DNA of 64,000 bases from assembly GCA_019359615.1 (NCBI GenBank), contig JAHHHA010000024.1, positions 1 through 64,000 on the forward strand, written 5' to 3'. Positions 12,701 to 41,990 of the stretch are shown in pieces. The position numbers were made by a program, and so were the translations under genes. The stretch's first letter is position 1. The number at the start of each line of letters is the position of its first letter. Under the pieces are notes generated by a model, which worked only from the letters and a program-made list of their open reading frames with translations, was not told where the DNA came from and did not search any database. The DNA is from Cyanosarcina radialis HA8281-LM2 (lineage in GTDB: Bacteria; Cyanobacteriota; Cyanobacteriia; Cyanobacteriales; CCAP-1448).

Positions 12701-12974
12701 TGTTATTTGCGATCGTTGACTTTATGAAAGTTGACTTTTTTGCGATCGTACTGGTTAGGCTATATTTGCCAAATTAAATTGCTCTGTAATAACCTTAAAG
12801 TCCCTAATTTTTCCTCTCTCTTTTGGTATATATACAGTTAATTATTTATGAAATAAAATATTTATTTTGTATTTGTAAAGTTATTTTAAAAATATCTGGT
12901 ACGTCAGGAATTTGTGAGCTAGGCTGGCGACTGTAGGACACCAAATATGATTATTGTTTGGTTATCCAAAGAAA

Positions 12975-12991
12975 CAAAGCGTAAGTGAGGT
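12975..12991 (+). promoter_or_regulatory. 17-bp conserved leader element, copy 1 (contains the RBS)
   Basis: CAAAGCGTAAGTGAGGT occurs identically at 12975, 13853 and 14778. Here its GTGAGG forms the Shine-Dalgarno sequence of peptide A1, seven bases before the ATG. Conservation over the whole 17 bp, not just the RBS core, suggests duplication or a 5'-UTR control role. Confidence 0.65.
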
Positions 12992-12997
12992 ATAACA

Positions 12998-13240
12998 ATG
13001 GATTCTCAATTATTCGTCGAACTTTCTGAATCTCAACAAGAACTAGTTGCTGGTGGCGGTCAACTTACCGATCTCGACGATTATCTCGATACTTTCTTTA
13101 AAGCCGAGAACTCGGTGGTAGATTTTCAGGCGATGCTAGAGTCAGGTCCTGATGGCAGCACGGTCATGCAAGACTTCTCGCAAGACTTCACGGCGATCGA
13201 TACGGGAGCGAAGAAGGATTTCTCGGCCAGCTTCGACTAA
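12998..13240 (+). CDS. Double-glycine secreted peptide precursor A1
   Basis: 80 residues. The leader LFVELSESQQELVAGG (5-20) is the cyanobacterial form of the double-glycine leader cut by C39-peptidase ABC transporters; cleavage is predicted after Gly20. The core is about 60 residues and strongly acidic, with no Cys (LDDYLDTFF, MLESGPDGSTVMQDF, KKDFSASFD), so it is not a lanthipeptide-type substrate. It is nearly identical to A2 at 13876. Similar leader peptides (EbfG proteins) are secreted in Synechococcus elongatus and promote biofilm formation. A matching C39 transporter and HlyD protein lie downstream. Confidence 0.88.
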   Translation: MDSQLFVELSESQQELVAGGGQLTDLDDYLDTFFKAENSVVDFQAMLESGPDGSTVMQDFSQDFTAIDTGAKKDFSASFD

Positions 13241-13253
13241 TGGCTGAAAAGTC

Positions 13254-13287
13254 TCTAAGGCTGCCGCTAACTTAGGACATCCCTAGA
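13254..13287 (+). promoter_or_regulatory. Conserved stem-loop region after A1
   Basis: TCTAAGG...CCCTAGA just after the A1 stop is the counterpart of a better hairpin after A2. It has one mismatch in the outer stem and an alternative CTAAG/CTTAG pairing. There is no T-run, so it is more likely an mRNA-stability or attenuation element than a strong terminator. Confidence 0.4.
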
Positions 13288-13305
13288 GCAGAGCATATAA
13301 CACCA

Positions 13306-13436
13306 AAAAGATTCCAGCGCTCCCTCTAAGGCTTTTGGGCTGGCTAATTGCTAATCGAATTTCTGGTTCAATGTCCGACTGAGGACGTTGCCAAGGGACA
13401 AGTCCTTCCCAAGGAACGAGTCTGTTGGAATCTTTT
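13306..13436. repeat. 131-bp segment bounded by 11-bp inverted repeats
   Basis: AAAAGATTCCA (13306-13316) and TGGAATCTTTT (13426-13436) are perfect inverted repeats. The segment lies in the A1-B1 spacer (264 bp), while the A2-B2 spacer (84 bp) lacks it. The flanks of the two spacers otherwise align. It could be a small non-autonomous insertion or a large stem-loop. Confidence 0.45.
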
Positions 13437-13504
13437 CTGGCCTTCTAGGGATTAAACCTAAGTCAAGCTAGCCAACGTGAAGGACGTAAGAGAGGTTTAA
13501 ACCC

Positions 13505-13780
13505 ATGACCCAACCAACCAGAACGTCCGAGTTGTGGATAGAGTTGTCCCAGGAGCAACAAGAAATTGTTTCTGGCGGTCTAACTTTGACCTTTCCTGAA
13601 GTATCTCTATCTATAGATTTGCCTTCAATTTTTGGACGAGGAGGTTCGTTGCCATCAGGTGATGACTTGCCCTTCTTGCCTGATGACTCTGACAGGGGTT
13701 GCGTTCGCAAAGACATTCCCCTGGAAGACGGTCGCGACGTAGAAATTATTTGCGATCGCCAAACCGAGAAGCTCATCTAA
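13505..13780 (+). CDS. Double-glycine secreted peptide precursor B1
   Basis: 91 residues. Leader ELWIELSQEQQEIVSGG ends at Gly24-Gly25. The core is about 66 residues: a hydrophobic beta-like segment (LTLTFPEVSLSIDLPSIFG), an acidic linker, and a C-terminal part with two Cys in GCVRK and IICDR that could form a disulfide. The core is unlike the A peptides. The ATG at 13505 has AGAGAGG nine bases upstream. It is paralogous to B2 at 14203, where Cys positions and the LEDGR/MEDGR motif are kept. It probably shares the downstream C39 exporter with the A peptides. Confidence 0.85.
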   Translation: MTQPTRTSELWIELSQEQQEIVSGGLTLTFPEVSLSIDLPSIFGRGGSLPSGDDLPFLPDDSDRGCVRKDIPLEDGRDVEIICDRQTEKLI

Positions 13781-13852
13781 AAAGTGAAGTCTCAAAAGGT
13801 CATCGATCGAAAAATTCCGCTCTCTCCGTTCCTTTTACTAAAAAGAAACAAA

Positions 13853-13869
13853 CAAAGCGTAAGTGAGGT
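13853..13869 (+). promoter_or_regulatory. 17-bp conserved leader element, copy 2 (contains the RBS)
   Basis: Identical to the copies at 12975 and 14778. It provides the GTGAGG ribosome-binding site of peptide A2, with the ATG seven bases after the GG. Confidence 0.65.
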
Positions 13870-13875
13870 AAAACA

Positions 13876-14118
13876 ATGAATTCTCAATTGTTCGTCGAAC
13901 TCTCTGAAGAACAACAAGAACTAGTCGCTGGTGGCGGTCAACTTACCGACCTCGACGATTATCTCGATACGTACTTCAAGGCTGAAAACTCAGAGGTAGA
14001 TTTTCAGGCGATGCTTGAGTCGGGACCTGATGGTAGCACGGTCATGCAAGACTTCTCGCAAGACTTCACCAAGATTGCTAACGCCGCGAAGAAGGATTTC
14101 TCGGCCCAATTTGACTAA
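13876..14118 (+). CDS. Double-glycine secreted peptide precursor A2
   Basis: 80 residues and a close paralogue of A1, with differences mainly at residues 2, 12, 33, 40 and 66-71. Leader LFVELSEEQQELVAGG ends at Gly20; the core is acidic and Cys-free. Start and RBS context are the same as A1. A1-B1 and A2-B2 form a tandemly duplicated two-gene cassette with about 878 bp between A starts. Near-identity of the A cores while the B cores have diverged more suggests recent duplication or gene conversion, and stronger constraint on A. Confidence 0.88.
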   Translation: MNSQLFVELSEEQQELVAGGGQLTDLDDYLDTYFKAENSEVDFQAMLESGPDGSTVMQDFSQDFTKIANAAKKDFSAQFD

Positions 14119-14131
14119 GAGTTGCGAAATT

Positions 14132-14165
14132 TCTAGGGCTGCCGCCAACTTATGGCATCCCTAGA
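14132..14165 (+). promoter_or_regulatory. Stem-loop between A2 and B2
   Basis: TCTAGGG/CCCTAGA (7 bp) encloses a C-T mismatch and TGCC/GGCA (4 bp) around loop GCCAACTTAT, starting 13 bases after the A2 stop. There is no T-run. Likely roles are mRNA stabilisation of the upstream A message or partial termination that sets the A:B ratio. The equivalent after A1 is weaker. Confidence 0.5.
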
Positions 14166-14202
14166 GCAGAGCAAAAGCCAGTCATTGTGAAGGACGTAAG
14201 AG

Positions 14203-14475
14203 ATGTTTAAACCCACGATCCAACCAACCAGAACGTCCGAGTTGTGGATGGAGTTATCCGAGGAGCAACAAGAATTTATTTCTGGCGGCCTAGATCTGTC
14301 CTTTCCTCGAATGTCTCTAGACTTCCCCTCATTCTTTGGGCTAGGAGATCGATCGATCGATGATGATTTCCGTCCTGATGACTCTGAGGGGGGTTGCGTT
14401 CGCAAAGAGCGTCCCATGGAGGACGGCCGCAACGTGGAAATAATTTGCCATCGTAAGACCGAGAAGCACATCTAA
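14203..14475 (+). CDS. Double-glycine secreted peptide precursor B2
   Basis: 90 residues, paralogue of B1. Leader ELWMELSEEQQEFISGG ends at Gly28-Gly29. The two Cys (GCVRKE, IICHR) and MEDGR are retained, but the middle of the core is shorter and diverged. The start differs from B1: the ATG used by B1 is ACG here, and the base change AGG to ATG in the old ribosome-binding site creates an upstream start at 14203 served by AAGGA eight bases before. This adds four residues before the leader. Function as for B1. Confidence 0.83.
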   Translation: MFKPTIQPTRTSELWMELSEEQQEFISGGLDLSFPRMSLDFPSFFGLGDRSIDDDFRPDDSEGGCVRKERPMEDGRNVEIICHRKTEKHI

Positions 14476-14967
14476 AAAGTGAAGGATCGAGAGGTCGTTT
14501 ATCAAAATATTCCAACCTCTCCACCCCTTCGATCGAAGGGAGCTAAGACCATTCACTTTCTGCTTCAGGCTTGCCTGCAAGTCGTTCCATCTGAGCGGTT
14601 ATGCCTGCCTCAGAAGACAGAGCGATCGCTATTTTAAAATTCAATTTTCCCTGGCGATCGCCTGTTGCAAAATCTATCTAACGATAGTTAGGAGAGCTTT
14701 ATTTCTGTTTTCCTCGCGTTAGTTTAATTTGTGGGTGAAAAAGGGCGTAGAAACCCATAGGCTACGATCGAGATGCTCAAAGCGTAAGTGAGGTTTTCGA
14801 GGTAGTTCTGGAGTTTCTCAATATCTATTGGATATCTTTTTTCACCCTTTTTTATCTTTCCTCATTCTTCTTAAAAAAGTAGTGAGGACTTAACATAATT
14901 TAATTTAATTTAAAACAAATAACTTAACTGCTACCTATGCTACTTAACCGGATGAGGGACTGGTAAG
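14476..14967. other. Spacer between B2 and the HlyD gene
   Basis: These 492 bp hold no credible ORF. At 14778-14794 is a third, perfect copy of the 17-bp leader element, but no start codon follows at the right distance. The next bases (GGAGTTTCTCAATAT) weakly resemble the start of an A gene (GGATTCTCAATTAT), so this may be a decayed third cassette. Two HIP1-type GCGATCGC sites are present. The last 100 bp are AT-rich and could hold the hlyD promoter. Confidence 0.45.
14778..14794 (+). promoter_or_regulatory. 17-bp conserved leader element, copy 3 (no peptide gene)
   Basis: Exact third copy of CAAAGCGTAAGTGAGGT, lying 174 bp before the HlyD start and not followed by an ATG within RBS distance. 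It is either a remnant of a lost peptide gene or a site with a role other than translation initiation. Confidence 0.55.
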
Positions 14968-16758
14968 ATGCACGAATTAAATCCCAACCAATTGTTAGAT
15001 CTAGAACATCCCCTGCAAGAAGAGGAGTTTCTCCCCGGTAGAAGTAGATGGGCAAGGTTGGGGGGAATAGCTTTAGTCGGGATATTCAGTGCCGCGTTGC
15101 TGGCGGCAGCGACCCTGAAGTACAACGTGACGGTGAAAGTGCCAGCCACCATCAGACCGACAGGAGAACTGCGGTTAGCGCAACCAGGGGTGGAAGGAAC
15201 CGTCAAGCAGATTAGCGTCAAGGAAAACCAGGTAGTCAAACAGGGCGATCCGATCGCTTACTTGGATGATTCGCGAGGGCAAACTCGCCAGAGTCAATTG
15301 CAAATTAGCAACCAACAAACCGAACTGCAACTGACGCAGGTGATGTCTCAAATGGCAGCGATTCGATCGCAGATTGCTGCCGAGTCGCAGCTAATTCGAG
15401 GCAATTTGGGGTCTAGTAAGGCAACTTTGAGCGGAGAACGCAGCAAGTATCGAGAGCGGCAAGCCAACACCCAAGCCGAGTTGCAAGCAGCCCAGAACGA
15501 CTTAGCGATCGCGAGAGCGCAGTGGGCGCGAGTAATTAATAACAATGAATTAAAGGCTAACGAGCAGGAAGCGCAAGCCAACTTAGAGGCCGCCAGAGGG
15601 CAATGGCTGCGGTTGGTTAACGATAACGAATTAAGGGCTAACGAGCAGGAAGCACGCGCTAACTTGGAAGCCGCTAGAGCGCAGTGGGAACAACTAGGGC
15701 GGGAAAATCAGGCTAATTTGCAAGAAGCCCAAGCCAACTTGGATCTGGCCAAGATTCAGCTTACCCGCTGGCGGCGATTGCGATCGGCTGGAGCAATTTC
15801 TCAGAATCAGTACGACGAAAAAGTCCGGGCTGTCAAGGTAGCAGAAGCCCAACTGAAACAAACCCAAGCGGCAAATAAGAAAGAATACGAGATTCGCAAA
15901 CAAGCCTTAGAGACAGCTAAAGCCGACTTGTTGCAAACCCAAGCCGCGAACAAGAAAGAATACGATATCCGCAAGCAAGCCTTGGGGACAACTAAAGCCA
16001 AACTGCTGCAAACCCAAGCGGCGAATAAGAAAGAATACGATGCCAGAAAACAAGCTTTGGAGACAGCCAAAGCGAAGTTTTTACAAGCCCAAGCCGCCGT
16101 CAATTCCAATGATGCCGATGTGCGAGTAGCAGCCACCCAGCTAGAACAAGTGCAACCACAAGGACAAGCAACCATTGCAGGTTTGAATAACCAACTAGAA
16201 ACGCTCAACCAGCGCAGCGCGGAACTCCGCAGCCAACTGAATCGAGGGCAAAAAGAATTGCAACAGCTACAGGCAGAACTGAAAGGGAGCGTAGTCCGGG
16301 CCCCGGTAACTGGAACCGTACTCCAACTGAGCTTGCGCAACCAGGGGCAAGTAGTGCGTCCGGGAGAGCCGATAGCCTATATTGCCCCTCAAGGCGCTCG
16401 ACTAGAAATCAAAGCTCGCATCCCAGCCCAGGAAATCAACAAAGTCAAAGTCGGACAAGCAGTGCAGATGCAAGTTTCTGCCTGTCCTTATCCCGACTAC
16501 GGGACGCTTAAAGGTAAGGTTAAAACTGTGGCTCCCGACGCTCTCCCGGCAACAGATAACCAAAACCAAAGTTCCCCTACAACTCCACCGCCAAACTCGT
16601 TTGAGGTGACGATCGAACCAGAAACCTCATTTGTAGGAGATAGCGATCGCCAGTGTCAACTGCAAACCGGGATGGAAGGCAAAGCCGATATTATTACCAA
16701 GGAGGAAACCGTGCTGACGTTCGTTCTTAGAAAAGCTAGGTTGCTAACAGATACTTAA
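14968..16758 (+). CDS. HlyD-family periplasmic adaptor of the peptide exporter
   Basis: 596 residues: a short cytoplasmic N-terminus, one transmembrane helix (about 28-48), a biotinyl/lipoyl half (PGVEGTVKQISVKENQVVKQGDPIAYL), a very long coiled coil (about 105-430), the second half (RAPVTGTVLQLSLRNQGQVVRPGE) and a beta-barrel domain. It would bridge the ABC transporter to an outer-membrane channel. The coiled coil contains internal duplications: two 81-bp units (15520-15681) and three 75-bp units (15859-16083). It precedes the C39 transporter by 102 bp on the same strand. No TolC-type protein is in the window. Confidence 0.93.
   Translation: MHELNPNQLLDLEHPLQEEEFLPGRSRWARLGGIALVGIFSAALLAAATLKYNVTVKVPATIRPTGELRLAQPGVEGTVKQISVKENQVVKQGDPIAYLDDSRGQTRQSQLQISNQQTELQLTQVMSQMAAIRSQIAAESQLIRGNLGSSKATLSGERSKYRERQANTQAELQAAQNDLAIARAQWARVINNNELKANEQEAQANLEAARGQWLRLVNDNELRANEQEARANLEAARAQWEQLGRENQANLQEAQANLDLAKIQLTRWRRLRSAGAISQNQYDEKVRAVKVAEAQLKQTQAANKKEYEIRKQALETAKADLLQTQAANKKEYDIRKQALGTTKAKLLQTQAANKKEYDARKQALETAKAKFLQAQAAVNSNDADVRVAATQLEQVQPQGQATIAGLNNQLETLNQRSAELRSQLNRGQKELQQLQAELKGSVVRAPVTGTVLQLSLRNQGQVVRPGEPIAYIAPQGARLEIKARIPAQEINKVKVGQAVQMQVSACPYPDYGTLKGKVKTVAPDALPATDNQNQSSPTTPPPNSFEVTIEPETSFVGDSDRQCQLQTGMEGKADIITKEETVLTFVLRKARLLTDT
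15520..15681 (+). repeat. Two 81-bp in-frame repeats in the HlyD coiled coil
   Basis: Each 27-residue unit carries NELKANEQEAQANLEAAR or a near copy. They lie at 15520-15600 and 15601-15681. A multiple near seven residues per turn pair keeps the coiled coil continuous, so unit number would change its length. Confidence 0.75.
15859..16083 (+). repeat. Three 75-bp in-frame repeats in the HlyD coiled coil
   Basis: Units at 15859-15933, 15934-16008 and 16009-16083 each encode QTQAANKKEY plus RKQALETAKA with minor changes. Synonymous differences show they are not sequencing duplicates. Confidence 0.8.
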
Positions 16759-16860
16759 CGAAGTCAGAAGTCAGAAGTCAGAAGTCAGAAGTTGGTTTTT
16801 GCAGGAGGGGATTTATACCTCGCTCCAAAAACTTTAACCATGAACTATGAACCATAAACT
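16759..16860. repeat. AGAAGTC tandem repeats between HlyD and ABC genes
   Basis: Five consecutive AGAAGTC heptamers follow the HlyD stop, then a short ACTATGAACCATAAACTATG segment leads into the ABC start. No clear ribosome-binding site precedes the ATG at 16861. Confidence 0.6.
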
Positions 16861-19041
16861 ATGAAATTGCTTGCAGGTAAAACCAAATATCAATGCGTTT
16901 TGCAGTTGAGCGAAGAAGACTGCGGCGCAGCGTGTTTGGCCACCATTTCTCGGCATCACGATCGCATCTTGAGCCTGAATCGCAGTCGGGAAGCGGTAGG
17001 TACCGGACAACTGGGAACGACGATGCTGGGATTGAAGCGCGGGGCGGAAACCTTGGGGTTCAACGCCCGCTCGGTTAAAGCTTCCCGCGAGTTAATCGAC
17101 AAGCTCAAAGAAGTGCCCCTACCAGCCATCATTCATTGGCGGGGTTATCACTGGGTAGTGTTCTACGGGAAGGAGGGCAGGCGCTATGCGATCGCCGATC
17201 CGGCTGTGGGGGTGCGCTATCTCACCCGTCAAGAGCTAGAAGCGGGCTGGAACGGTATCATGCTGCTCTTAGAACCAGATCGGGAGCGGTTTTTAGACCA
17301 AGCGGAAGAAACCACTTCTAGCGGCTTCGGTCGCTTTCTGCGGCGGGTTTGGCCTTTTCGCGGCTTGCTGGCAGAAGCATTGGTTCTCAATATCGTTCTC
17401 GGACTGCTGGCCCTGGCAAGTCCTTTTTTAATCCAAATTCTGACCGACGACGTGCTGGTGCGAGGGGATATGGATTTGCTGACAGTGGTAATTGTCGGCG
17501 TAGTGTTGATGAGCTTATTCAGCGGTTGCTTGCAACTAGTGCAATCGAGTGCGATCGCTCGCTTCGGACAGCGGTTGCAATTAGGATTGGTACTCGAATT
17601 CGGTCGCAAAGTCCTCCGCCTGCCCTTACCCTATTACGAATCCCGGCGCAGCGGCGAAATTACCAGCCGTTTGCGAGATATTAATGAAATCAATCAGTTA
17701 GTTTCTCAGGTAGTGGCGAGTTTGCCGAGCCAATTTTTTGTGGCTTTAGTTTCTTTATGTTTTATGACCTTCTATAGCTGGAAGCTGACCTTAGTGGCTC
17801 TAGCCGTCGGGGGATTAATGACTTTATCGACCCTGCCTTTCTTACCCGTTTTGCGCCGCAAGCATCGCGACCTGTTAGTGCTGGCAGCCGAAAATCAAGG
17901 CGTGCTGGTGGAAACCTTCAAGGGCGCTTTGATTATGAAAGCCACCTCTGCCGCCATGCAATTCTGGGAAGAATTTCAAACCCGCTTCGGTCGTCTGGCC
18001 AATTTAACTTTAAGTACCATCCAAATCGCCATTCTGATTGGGGTTTTCTCTCAAGTTATTTCTAAAGTGGGCAGCGTCGCTTTACTTGGCATGGGCAGTT
18101 TGTTAGTCATCCAAAAGGAATTAACGATCGGGCAACTGCTGGCTTTCAACGGGATGCAAGGTAACGTGCTGGCTTTAATTGGTGCCCTCACAGGCTTGGT
18201 AGATGAATATTTTCGCTCTCAAACTGCGGTCGGCCGCCTGTTAGAGGTAATCGATGCCACTCCAGAAGCGATCGCCGATGGCAGTAAGCCTTATGTCCGC
18301 CTACCTGGAGATGCCGATCTTTACTTGAGTTACGTCAACTTTCACCACCCAGGTCGGGTGGATCTGCTAGAGAATTTTTCTCTGCGGTTGCCAGGAGGTG
18401 TGGCGATCGCCTTGATCGGTAAATCTGGTTGCGGCAAGAGTACCTTAGCCAAACTGATAGCTGGATTATATCAACCCCAATCAGGCAATATCCGCATCGG
18501 CATTTACAACTTAGGCGACCTCCCCCTCGATTGCCTGCGGCAACAGGTAGTCTACGTGGCTCAAGACCCCCACTTCTGGAGTCGATCGATTCTGGAAAAC
18601 TTCCGGTTAGGTGCGCCGCACGTCTCCTTCGAGCAGATCGTCACGGCCTGTCAGATTGCGGATGCTGATAGTTTTATCAGTCAGTTGCCGAATAAGTATC
18701 AAACCGTTTTAGGAGAATTTGGTGCCAATATTTCTGGGGGACAAAGACAAAGACTGGCGATCGCTCGCGGTCTGGTCAACGACCCCCCAATATTAATTAT
18801 GGATGAGTCTACCTCTGGACTCGATCCGGTCAGCGAATCGCAAATCTTAGAACAAATCTTGCGCCATCGTCAGGGTAAAACCACGATTATGATTACCCAT
18901 CGTCCCAGCGTTATCAATCGGGCCGATTGGGTCGTTTTATTGGACAACGGCCAGATGAGAATTGAAGGTTCTTTAGAAGATTTGCGACTTACCCCTGGAG
19001 AACATTTAAAGTTTTTGTCGTCTTATCATTTAAGGAGTTAA
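16861..19041 (+). CDS. C39-peptidase ABC transporter (peptide processing and export)
   Basis: 726 residues, typical for a bacteriocin-type transporter. The N-terminal C39 peptidase has Cys21 (EEDCGAACLA), His97 (GYHWVVF) and Asp113 (IADPAVG), so double-glycine leader cleavage should be functional. A six-helix transmembrane domain spans about 170-450. The ATPase has Walker A GKSGCGKST (about 520), signature SGGQRQR (about 625), Walker B ILIMDES and the H-loop ITHR. It should cut and export the A, B and C-type peptides here. PteB of S. elongatus is the closest functional parallel. The peptide gene at 19046 follows by four bases. Confidence 0.96.
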   Translation: MKLLAGKTKYQCVLQLSEEDCGAACLATISRHHDRILSLNRSREAVGTGQLGTTMLGLKRGAETLGFNARSVKASRELIDKLKEVPLPAIIHWRGYHWVVFYGKEGRRYAIADPAVGVRYLTRQELEAGWNGIMLLLEPDRERFLDQAEETTSSGFGRFLRRVWPFRGLLAEALVLNIVLGLLALASPFLIQILTDDVLVRGDMDLLTVVIVGVVLMSLFSGCLQLVQSSAIARFGQRLQLGLVLEFGRKVLRLPLPYYESRRSGEITSRLRDINEINQLVSQVVASLPSQFFVALVSLCFMTFYSWKLTLVALAVGGLMTLSTLPFLPVLRRKHRDLLVLAAENQGVLVETFKGALIMKATSAAMQFWEEFQTRFGRLANLTLSTIQIAILIGVFSQVISKVGSVALLGMGSLLVIQKELTIGQLLAFNGMQGNVLALIGALTGLVDEYFRSQTAVGRLLEVIDATPEAIADGSKPYVRLPGDADLYLSYVNFHHPGRVDLLENFSLRLPGGVAIALIGKSGCGKSTLAKLIAGLYQPQSGNIRIGIYNLGDLPLDCLRQQVVYVAQDPHFWSRSILENFRLGAPHVSFEQIVTACQIADADSFISQLPNKYQTVLGEFGANISGGQRQRLAIARGLVNDPPILIMDESTSGLDPVSESQILEQILRHRQGKTTIMITHRPSVINRADWVVLLDNGQMRIEGSLEDLRLTPGEHLKFLSSYHLRS

Positions 19042-19045
19042 CTCT

Positions 19046-19387
19046 ATGTCTTGCGATCCTCAACCCCAAAATGATGAATTGTTAGCCGAGCTATCCGATC
19101 GAGAACAGGAAAATATATCTGCTGGTTGGTTTTTTTCAGGAATGAATCAGCCAGGATTTTTCTTCTTTTCTTCCCAAGAAACAGAGATTGAAACTGGTAG
19201 CGAATCTCAAGTTGACATTGCTCCACAGGGTTTTTCTTCCAAATCAAAAACGTCTTACTCTTTGTCGCAAAGATCGGTTTCTTTTGGCGGATTTATCCCA
19301 TTTGGGGGCGGATCGTGGGGGGGAAGGATGCAATTTTTTAAACTAGCCTTGCTGGCAGCTTTCGGACGGTCTAGTTATTGGGATTAG
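19046..19387 (+). CDS. Atypical Ala-Gly-leader peptide precursor C
   Basis: 113 residues beginning four bases after the transporter stop, with AAGGAG ten bases before the ATG. Residues 11-27 read ELLAELSDREQENISAG, clearly related to the A/B leaders but ending Ala-Gly instead of Gly-Gly; the cut would fall after Gly27. The core is Phe-, Ser- and Gly-rich (PGFFFFSS, FGGFIPFGGGSWGG) with a hydrophobic end, unlike A or B, and has no Cys. Tight coupling to the transporter suggests it is a substrate or an immunity or regulatory partner. The role is unknown. Confidence 0.72.
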   Translation: MSCDPQPQNDELLAELSDREQENISAGWFFSGMNQPGFFFFSSQETEIETGSESQVDIAPQGFSSKSKTSYSLSQRSVSFGGFIPFGGGSWGGRMQFFKLALLAAFGRSSYWD

Positions 19388-39167: not shown

Positions 39168-41990
39168 CTACAGCTTCATATCGATCAGAGTTTTGGCAAC
39201 TTCAGATTTAACTGGTTTTGAGAACAGATATCCTTGCCCGTACTGACATTTAATCGATTTGAGTTGGGCCAGTTGGGCGATGGTTTCAATGCCAGCAGCA
39301 GTCGTCTGCATTCCTAGCTCGTCAGCGATCGCAATAATTCTACGCACGATTTCCAAACTTTCTTCATCAACGTCAATTTGACCGATCAACGAGCGATCGA
39401 TTTTCAACATATCGAATTGACGATACGAACTCAGTTTCGGCAGCCGTTCTAAGCGGCTTAAGAACGAATAACCGATTCCCAATCGATCGACTTGTAACTG
39501 CACGCCTAACTTTTTCAGTTGCGACAGCTTGTGAGAAGCCGCTTCTGGATTTTCCATCACCACGCTTTCGGGAATCTCTAGGCGCAAATGGCGGGCACCT
39601 AGTTTAGTTTCTGCCAGAATTTGGGCAATTCGATCGACTAAATCGGCTTGGAAAAACTGCCTAGCCGAGAGATTGACGCTGACTATAGGCAAACGATCTC
39701 CAGGTAAATGGTGCTGCCAAGCCAGCAGGCGCGTGCAAGCTTCTCGCAATACCCACCAGCCTATAGGTACGATCAGGGCAGTTTCTTCGATCGCAGGCAT
39801 AAATTCTGCCAAAGAGATCAACCCTCGTCGAGGATGCTGCCAACGCAACAGGGCTTCAAAGCCGATAATTTTATTATTTTGCAAGTCAACGATCGGCTGA
39901 TAGTAAATTCGCAACCCTTCTAATGCTGGCGGTAAATTTTCCCCAATTTCTAACGGGGCTAGCGGCATTTCATTTTTGGCAGAAATGGCGGCGCTGAGGG
40001 CTTCGCTAAAGTCGATCTTCAGATCGACATCTTTATTCTTAGCTGCCTGCTTCGCTGGTACGGTTTGTGTATGGTAATCATTGGGTGCGTATTCCGAAAC
40101 CAACTGTTTCAGCAGACTGACGATTTCTGGCGCGTCGTTTTGCCGGGCCGCGTCGCAGACATCTTCGACCAGAGACTCCAGATTTGGCGGAATAATCCGA
40201 CTGGCGTTATGCACCATCAAAATCTTTTCGTGCTTGGTGGGGGTGTATTTTTCGCCAGGAATGAACAGTTCTTCATACAATTTTTCTCCCGGTCGCAAGC
40301 CCGTAAACAAGATGTCAATATCTTTCCCCACTTCATATCCAGACAGGCGAATCAAATCTTTAGCTAGATCGACGATCTTCACTGGTTGCCCCATATCCAG
40401 CATGAAGACTTCGCCCCCCTTACCGATTACCGCCGCCTGCAACACCAGTTGGACGGCTTCGGGAATAGTCATGAAATAGCGGCAAATTTCTGGATGAGTA
40501 ATCGTAATCGGGCCGCCAGCGGCGATTTGTTGCTTGAAAGTGGGAACGACGCTGCCCCTACTTCCCAGAACGTTACCAAAGCGGACGACGACGAACGCTT
40601 TGCCGCTCTTGCGGGCAGCATTGAGAACTAGCATTTCTGCCGTGCGCTTGCTAGCACCCATGACACTAGTAGGATTGACCGCTTTGTCAGTGGAGATCAT
40701 GACAAAGTTTTTGACGTGGTATCGCCGCGCCAAATCCAGTAAATTTTTTGTTCCTAAAACGTTATTAGTAATAGCTTCTGGGGAATTTAGTTCCATCAGG
40801 GGGACGTGCTTGTGGGCCGCTGCGTGAAAAATCACATCCGGGCGAAATTCAGCAAAAGCATAATCTAGCCGGGAAGGAAAGCGAATATCGGCAATTAAAG
40901 TCCTCAATTTAGGGATGTGGCCTTGAGCTTCGCCATCTTCTTTGAGAATTGCCAGTACCCTTTTGAGTTCTTGTTCGATCCCGAAGACAGAATTTTCTCC
41001 ATGTCCGAGCAGCAACATTTCTGTGGGCTGGCATTTGAGAACTTGGCGGCAAATTTCGCTGCCGATAGAGCCTCCCGCACCCGTGATCAAAACTTTTTTC
41101 CCTTCCAGGAATTGGGAAACTCGATCGATATCGGTTTTTACTGCTTCCCGTCTGAGCAAATCTTCAATTTCAATATCTCGCAGGCTTTGCACCCGAACTC
41201 GCCCGTGCAAATCGCTCAAAATCTCAGATAATCCCGGCAGCGTGCTGGTTCTTAGCCCGATAGAGTGACAAATATCGACGATTTCCCGGACGATCTCGCC
41301 CGAAACGCTGGGCATGGCGACGATCGCTCGATCGATACTCAAAGATTCTACCAATTGCGGTATGCGATCGCGATCGCCAGCTACCGTCAGTCCGCGAATG
41401 TGTAAGTTAAACTTGCCGGGATCGTCATCGATAAAAGCTACTGGATTGAGATTAAAGCTGGGGTTGCGTTGCATTTCTTGGACGAGGGAAACCCCAGCAT
41501 TGCCAGCACCGATAATTAATACCCTCTCCCCTGGAGTCATTCCTTGGCGTTTTTGACACATCCTTTCCATCGCTCGAATGCTAAAACGGATGCCCCCAAT
41601 TATCATCAAGCCCAACATACCATCGATCAAAGGTAGCGATCGCGGCAGGTTGGGCGGCAGCACCCCAGCAAAATGGAGGGCGTAGAACAAAAACGTTTGC
41701 AGCACTACCGCCGACAGCATCAGCATTGCCATCTGGGTGAGTTCGTCTATGCTGGCGTAGCGCCAGTAACGGCGGTAAAAGCCAAATCGGTATAGCACGC
41801 TCAATTTAACTGCCAGGAAAACGAGCGTCACAAATATCAAACTCGATTTATATGTTTCGATCTCAAAAGAAACATCGAGCCGCAAAATTAAAGCTAGTAG
41901 TGGTGTCAGTAAAAAAATTATCGTATCGATCGCCAAAAAATGGCTATTATTAAGTCTTATGAGTTTTTTTAAGATTTTTTCGATCGTCAT
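39168..41990 (-). CDS. Sugar-nucleotide 4,6-dehydratase (WbpM/CapD type) fused to a degenerate EAL domain
   Basis: 940 residues. Four N-terminal membrane helices (about 18-132), a first nucleotide-binding domain (VLIIGAGNAG, 157-166), and a long SDR dehydratase domain (TGAGGSIGSE 303-312; Ser433, Met444 and Lys448 give the S-M-K triad of WbpM-like enzymes). The C-terminal EAL domain runs from about 690 to 938. Glu712 (FEALLRW), Asn773, Glu805, Lys863 and Gln919 are kept, but DDFGTG is DRLGIG (835-840) and the EGVE Glu is Ala899. It probably binds c-di-GMP without hydrolysing it. WbpM enzymes make UDP-sugar precursors for glycans. Confidence 0.93.
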   Translation of the reverse strand: MTIEKILKKLIRLNNSHFLAIDTIIFLLTPLLALILRLDVSFEIETYKSSLIFVTLVFLAVKLSVLYRFGFYRRYWRYASIDELTQMAMLMLSAVVLQTFLFYALHFAGVLPPNLPRSLPLIDGMLGLMIIGGIRFSIRAMERMCQKRQGMTPGERVLIIGAGNAGVSLVQEMQRNPSFNLNPVAFIDDDPGKFNLHIRGLTVAGDRDRIPQLVESLSIDRAIVAMPSVSGEIVREIVDICHSIGLRTSTLPGLSEILSDLHGRVRVQSLRDIEIEDLLRREAVKTDIDRVSQFLEGKKVLITGAGGSIGSEICRQVLKCQPTEMLLLGHGENSVFGIEQELKRVLAILKEDGEAQGHIPKLRTLIADIRFPSRLDYAFAEFRPDVIFHAAAHKHVPLMELNSPEAITNNVLGTKNLLDLARRYHVKNFVMISTDKAVNPTSVMGASKRTAEMLVLNAARKSGKAFVVVRFGNVLGSRGSVVPTFKQQIAAGGPITITHPEICRYFMTIPEAVQLVLQAAVIGKGGEVFMLDMGQPVKIVDLAKDLIRLSGYEVGKDIDILFTGLRPGEKLYEELFIPGEKYTPTKHEKILMVHNASRIIPPNLESLVEDVCDAARQNDAPEIVSLLKQLVSEYAPNDYHTQTVPAKQAAKNKDVDLKIDFSEALSAAISAKNEMPLAPLEIGENLPPALEGLRIYYQPIVDLQNNKIIGFEALLRWQHPRRGLISLAEFMPAIEETALIVPIGWWVLREACTRLLAWQHHLPGDRLPIVSVNLSARQFFQADLVDRIAQILAETKLGARHLRLEIPESVVMENPEAASHKLSQLKKLGVQLQVDRLGIGYSFLSRLERLPKLSSYRQFDMLKIDRSLIGQIDVDEESLEIVRRIIAIADELGMQTTAAGIETIAQLAQLKSIKCQYGQGYLFSKPVKSEVAKTLIDMKL

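Follow-up and report, generated by a model that had tools for sequence, protein, structure and literature searches.

A conserved exporter-linked leader peptide beside a tandemly duplicated precursor unit in a C39 exporter cluster of Cyanosarcina radialis

Clusters in which several leader peptides accompany an HlyD adaptor and a short C39 peptidase-ATP-binding cassette (C39-ABC) exporter were described as group III by Wang, Fewer and Sivonen (2011; PMC3140520), the accessible part of which gives one to sixteen precursors per cluster with little-conserved cores. In Synechococcus elongatus PCC 7942 four double-glycine (GG) leader peptides, EbfG1-4, are specified by one transcript beside the gene for the C39 exporter PteB. 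As far as the available portions of two reports go, biofilm formation by a biofilm-forming mutant requires EbfG1-4 as well as the cysteine of PteB's C39 domain, and the mature peptides are detected in the medium and lack homology to the proteins of any other cyanobacteria (PMC4997328); EbfG1-3 proved amyloid-forming in a test system, EbfG4 is non-amyloid and located on the cell surface, and Frenkel et al. likened this behaviour to that of CsgA and CsgB (PMC9981879). Here we analyse a stretch of 64,000 nucleotides (the window; contig JAHHHA010000024.1, positions 1 to 64,000) from Cyanosarcina radialis HA8281-LM2 (GCA_019359615.1), in which seven genes on the plus strand are arranged in the order A1-B1-A2-B2-hlyD-exporter-C (Table 1). 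All are open where an initial annotation had placed them. That annotation stressed the alternating A and B precursors and set C aside as atypical; we propose that this ranking should be reversed, since C is a conserved exporter-linked companion in many other cyanobacteria and B appears nearly private.

Using a profile made from six C members, C was detected in 30 of 388 genomes of the class at E≤0.001, the genome under study included. The profile located 41 places; removal of G279 (E 1e-3), which holds an A-type gene, left 40 C genes. Of these, 37 have, within 400 bp and on the same strand, a gene that matches the exporter of the window, C following the exporter in 29 cases and preceding it in eight; at three of the 37 loci (L106, L109 and L111) the exporter is represented only by a fragment at or near the end of a contig. 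As for the exceptions, the contig stretch of one C gene ends 256 bp from it, a second C gene has its exporter match at a distance of 767 bp, and a third has no match.

Approached from the exporter, whose 80 nearest relatives in named genomes were taken, C adjoins 42, and it stands beside 41 of the 59 exporters which have an HlyD gene directly upstream on the same strand. The C-core profile was built from the C genes of the 388-genome draw, that of the window included, and since profile genes and loci overlap (e.g. L126, L137 and L158) the counts obtained from the two sides are not independent. One of the 42 (L139) is a 39 amino acid fragment without a leader, and two of the loci lacking C (L155 and L156) are identical records. 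A second C gene within 7 kb of the exporter was seen at none of the 80 loci, and 34 of the 42 C-adjacent loci carry between one and seven other leader peptides upstream. Twelve of the 40 C loci also possess a GTPase-like gene together with a second gene having a shared N-terminal part; scans of two examples of the latter gave WD40 repeats or a sub-cut-off match to Roadblock. In C. radialis itself the GTPase-like gene and its partner are found on contig 43 (L235, 6607-9957), away from any exporter found.

The core of C looks like an amphipathic beta-hairpin, its strands each presenting one conserved face. Among 38 C sequences, conserved positions alternate in two 15-column stretches, with no exception in the first and one in the second; these patterns rank among the most extreme 1/6435 and 5/6435 arrangements, respectively, for stretches picked after viewing the alignment. 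The AlphaFold2 model of C has strands at residues 38-58 and 63-82 paired as a hairpin, with a block predicted local distance difference test (pLDDT) of 72-82 for residues 41-80, followed by a low-confidence helix (91-110). Pfam gave chance-like matches to two of the 38 C members at E≤0.01 and none to the rest, and neither C nor A1, A2, B1 or B2 matches above the cut-off.

Against the NCBIfam model NF038167 ("CTB family bacteriocin", cut-off 32 bits) A1 and A2 score 52.6 and 52.3 bits with near-full coverage of the model, while B1 (24.8), B2 (22.4) and C (17.5) fall short of it; B matches through its leader only. The C family is not remote from this model. At E≤0.01 it matches 35 of the 38 C sequences, and 9 of 10 C relatives whose scores were inspected match mostly at the leader and where the core begins. 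None of these ten reaches 32 bits, the best being that of Hydrococcus (31.0 bits), and by this curated rule C is therefore a separate family. The A and C core profiles share a single stretch of 16 columns (probability 12%). This short likeness and the sub-cut-off matches make a common origin possible, and C may have split off from CTB and share its ancestry with A. The leader LS.EQQE.(V/I).GG, originally ascribed to all the peptides, is shared loosely: A1 reads LSESQQE, and the corresponding region of C reads LSDREQENISAG, with Ala-Gly in place of Gly-Gly.

The alternation of A and B has a simple origin. Direct repeats of 300, 156 and 145 nucleotides link the two halves with 86, 80 and 86% identity, and in a global alignment the spacers agree as well as the genes do, the sole extra being a 168-nucleotide block between A1 and B1. 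Since genes and spacers alike are homologous between the halves, the A-B-A-B array is one A+B unit copied once in tandem. The contrast between a near-constant A and a diverging B, which had been noticed at the outset, was borne out by their substitution rates: 71 of 80 residues are identical between A1 and A2 as against 58 of 86 aligned between B1 and B2. For the A pair the nonsynonymous (dN) and synonymous (dS) rates are 0.076 and 0.546, their ratio omega being 0.14 (bootstrap range 0.05-0.30); for the B pair they are 0.206 and 0.370, with an omega of 0.56 (0.30-1.05). Of 2000 resamplings, 99.8% give B the higher omega (Fisher p 0.025 on rounded change counts). The high dS of A indicates constraint rather than recent homogenisation, and A is thus conserved although its copies are old. 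Recent gene conversion as a cause of the likeness of A1 and A2 was ruled out, as 39% of synonymous sites differ. No clear sign of positive selection on B was seen in the comparison of B1 with B2.

We favour, at a probability of roughly 0.45, the reading that the cluster specifies an exported set of surface or matrix peptides, with A as the major component, C as a minor partner and B as a species-specific extra. From what is known of these protein families, the C39 domain would cleave the A and B precursors behind GG and that of C behind AG, and the ABC part, HlyD and a TolC-type outer-membrane channel coded elsewhere would export the mature peptides. Their most likely place of action is the cell surface or the matrix, where A would be the main subunit of variable dosage and C a single-copy beta-hairpin partner which initiates, anchors or caps the structure built from A; by analogy with the systems described above, A could be a fibre-like or bulk component. 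B would be a lineage-specific accessory, possibly disulphide-bearing. With the tandem duplication the dosage of both peptides would have risen twofold; thereafter A would have remained under constraint and B undergone drift or adaptation. At this locus we also count in favour of a matrix role a dCache-HAMP-GGDEF gene ending approximately 0.8 kb upstream of the cluster, and the glycosyltransferases and CapD-like protein encoded downstream.

Several results weigh against this proposal. No C was detectable at 18 of the 59 HlyD-C39 clusters, including that of the nearest exporter by identity, from Chlorogloeopsis fritschii. The models are weak, with a mean pLDDT of 60.0 and a predicted template modelling score (pTM) of 0.34 for C, and weaker still for A (55.6 and 0.24), whose predicted structure is too poor for use. 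Curlin (Pfam) is absent from the 38 C-family members scanned, and the amyloid hot-spot motif of EbfG1-3, A-(hydrophobic)-N-I-(G/S), is absent from A1, A2, B1, B2 and C.

A broader extension, which we consider doubtful, is that C represents an unnamed widespread family providing one exporter-linked beta-hairpin peptide per cluster, which would nucleate or anchor CTB peptides of variable copy number; many cyanobacterial "bacteriocin" clusters would then make surface or matrix fibres from peptides in two roles, to which third peptides peculiar to a species, such as B, were added and duplicated alongside A. Several families of cyanobacteria have CTB peptides, and little evidence supports their being called bacteriocins. 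With C, which is conserved, present in single copy and linked to the exporter, there is a concrete gene by which to decide between weapons, signals and matrix, and the rate contrast between A and B inside one duplication is an internal control for which peptide is constrained.

Among the alternatives, it is possible, if unlikely, that A (and C) are bacteriocins which kill or inhibit competitors. The name of NF038167 points this way, Wang et al. treated such clusters as bacteriocin clusters (PMC3140520), and a CTB operon of Nodularia, induced in phosphate starvation, has been discussed as allelopathic (PMC9846622). The family name is, however, annotation-based, and the accessible portions of these two papers demonstrate no killing. 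No immunity gene, of the dedicated kind expected in the operon of a class IIb two-peptide bacteriocin or otherwise, was evident by eye in the list of open reading frames, which was not searched for one specifically, and the next gene appears thiolase-like, again by eye. Moreover, A is very acidic, with a computed charge of -9 to -10, and most membrane-active bacteriocins are not.

That A and B make up a dedicated secreted pair of two components, which was the initial annotation's proposal, is decidedly less probable. In its favour, the duplication took in A along with B, and none of the four copies has lost its open frame. The ATG of B1 is ACG in B2, and B2 has nevertheless kept an open frame from an in-frame upstream ATG, at the position of the Shine-Dalgarno-like GAGG of B1. 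What counts against a general pair is distribution. Searches of the class with A2, B2 and C each covered 388 genomes, seemingly one draw, with which the order and Hydrococcus-relative sets used below may overlap. With A2, 19 of the 388 genomes match at E≤0.01, the home genome included, and many weaker matches cover part of the query. With B2 only five match, nearly full-length in the home genome and at the leader end alone in the other four, one of which has stops. The B core by itself found seven matches at E≤0.1 among 388 genomes of the order, the best outside the home genome (E 0.009) containing an internal stop, and nothing convincing was obtained from 72,556 plasmid records. B therefore seems, on these searches, nearly private to the genome of the window.

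The expected co-occurrence of A and B elsewhere came down to a single weak B candidate, in Hydrococcus rivularis NIES-593 (L121). This peptide is the last in a row of A-like precursors, directly before hlyD, the exporter and C, and it has a Cys pair and ends in KTER (KTEK in B2), an arrangement that favours the pair. The A-type resemblance at this locus is firm (E 3e-15). The resemblance to B is not: its score was reached by 181 of 5000 shuffles for B2 and 4037 of 5000 for B1, the core profile probability is 1.9%, and the full-length match is partly borne by the leader. A query of three B sequences retrieved 19 genomes at E≤0.001 from 291 Hydrococcus relatives, full-length in Hydrococcus only, where the candidate was recovered by construction because it sits in the query alignment. 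One duplication suffices to produce the tandem two-type layout. The same genome has a second alternating array on contig 37 (L047, 5825-6634), consisting of four Arg-rich leader peptides of two kinds, quite unlike A and B and also copied in tandem (365 consecutive identical bases at an offset of 425), and alternation alone is therefore not the mark of a special pair. A C39 gene was searched for on contig 37 and none was found. On contig 2 (L045, 4299-6625) two similar leader peptides lie next to a gene in which a CxxxCxxC radical SAM-like motif is visible by eye.

Known peptide pheromones tend to be shorter than 60-86 amino acids, the length of the mature peptides here. That C or B would be a cell-cell signal, with A as carrier or decoy, is very improbable: pheromones are also exported by C39 exporters in Gram-positive bacteria (PMC10986499) and a sensor-type diguanylate cyclase is encoded upstream of the cluster, but a sensor kinase was found in none of the 10 neighbouring proteins scanned, a selection of the reading frames present.

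In keeping with export, whether of surface peptides as we favour or otherwise, the exporter possesses Peptidase_C39, ABC_membrane and ABC_tran domains (Pfam) and the adaptor has HlyD domains. Cys21, His97 and Asp113, which we take to be the catalytic residues of the C39 peptidase, are invariant across eight aligned exporters, and the original identification of an HlyD gene and an intact C39 transporter stands. In the exporter tree the window's sequence is weakly placed (support 83) beside that of genome G211, which has A-type precursors; by identity its closest relative is in C. fritschii. No exporter relatives in viral contigs were found by the patterns used, and together with the plasmid search for B this gave no indication of an origin from a phage or plasmid. 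The HlyD protein is longer (596 amino acids) than most relatives seen (approximately 430-530) and contains 3.1 copies of a 75-nucleotide (25 amino acid) repeat at window positions 15859-16094; a longer hairpin, if present, may reach across a thicker envelope. The gap between hlyD and the exporter gene includes a perfect 7-nucleotide repeat, GAAGTCA, in 4.7 copies (16760-16792).

Table 1. Features of the export cluster, with positions in the window
Feature	Position	Strand	Basis
A1 precursor, CTB family (NF038167), acidic, mature core ~60 amino acids	12998..13240	+	open reading frame, profile match
168-nucleotide block between A1 and B1, absent from second unit, single copy in genome	13296..13463	+	alignment, genome search
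B1 precursor; A-like leader, private core, Cys pair near C-terminus	13505..13780	+	
A2 precursor, 89% identity to A1	13876..14118	+	
B2 precursor, 67% identity to B1	14203..14475	+	
Tandemly duplicated A+B unit (12968-13834 and 13846-14529)	12968..14529	+	repeats, global alignment
17-nucleotide sequence, third exact copy, upstream of hlyD	14778..14794	+	
HlyD-type membrane-fusion adaptor, 596 amino acids	14968..16758	+	Pfam HlyD domains
Short-type C39 peptidase-ABC exporter, 726 amino acids, C21/H97/D113 present	16861..19041	+	Pfam, alignment
C precursor; conserved exporter-linked family; predicted core beta-hairpin and C-terminal helix	19046..19387	+	

A 17-nucleotide sequence occurs upstream of A1, A2 and hlyD, and with up to two mismatches allowed these are its only three sites in the genome. 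It was accordingly rejected as a genome-wide regulatory motif, all sites being at this locus; the copy before hlyD may be the stub of a further A+B unit or a shared leader for hlyD. The block peculiar to the first unit was likewise rejected as a repeated mobile element, being present once in the genome. The spacer between A1 and B1 (13238-13504) folds as RNA better than 200 of 200 shuffles (z -2.9), a fold that might govern how much A transcript is made relative to B. A large part of the stem falls within the block missing from the second unit. Promoter and terminator scans gave numbers near chance (11 v 7.5 and 8 v 8.2, respectively), and Rfam at gathering scores revealed a tRNA only across the window.

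Further downstream, within a glycosyltransferase cluster, the minus strand (39168-41990) encodes a 940 amino acid protein which combines a CapD/FlaA1-like polysaccharide synthesis domain with a C-terminal EAL (cyclic di-GMP phosphodiesterase) domain. We know of no other such fusion.

Compared with described systems, A1 and A2 with HlyD and the exporter appear from their sequences to fit group III, having the same HlyD, the same short C39-ABC exporter and several leader peptides. The exporter carries no extra domain and no CAP_ED, which is how the group is defined in the accessible part of PMC3140520, and no LanM, S8 or M16 enzyme was found among the window proteins scanned, the library scans having covered a selection of its open reading frames. 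The accessible part of that paper describes neither a tandem two-gene unit nor an exporter-linked C, although its Table S3 may list C-type peptides; nor does it assign the PteB cluster to a group. The titles and opening lines of abstracts retrieved likewise mention neither a conserved exporter-linked C family nor a duplicated A+B unit, and no profile or paper separating C from CTB was found. A1 and A2 are CTB members; B1, B2 and C remain below that cut-off. The curli proteins CsgA and CsgB resemble this set in role only, as a many-copy subunit and a minor beta-rich partner, and differ from it in their export route and in their Curlin repeats, for which C gave no Pfam match. The early comparison with EbfG/PteB is supported, in that leader peptides lie beside an HlyD gene and a C39 exporter. 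Judged by motif and description, the peptides differ from EbfG in lacking the hot-spot motif; EbfG4, in turn, has a variant cleavage motif (GA) and distinct behaviour, and C has AG. The cluster is of a known kind which carries a tandem duplication, and its worthwhile result is C.

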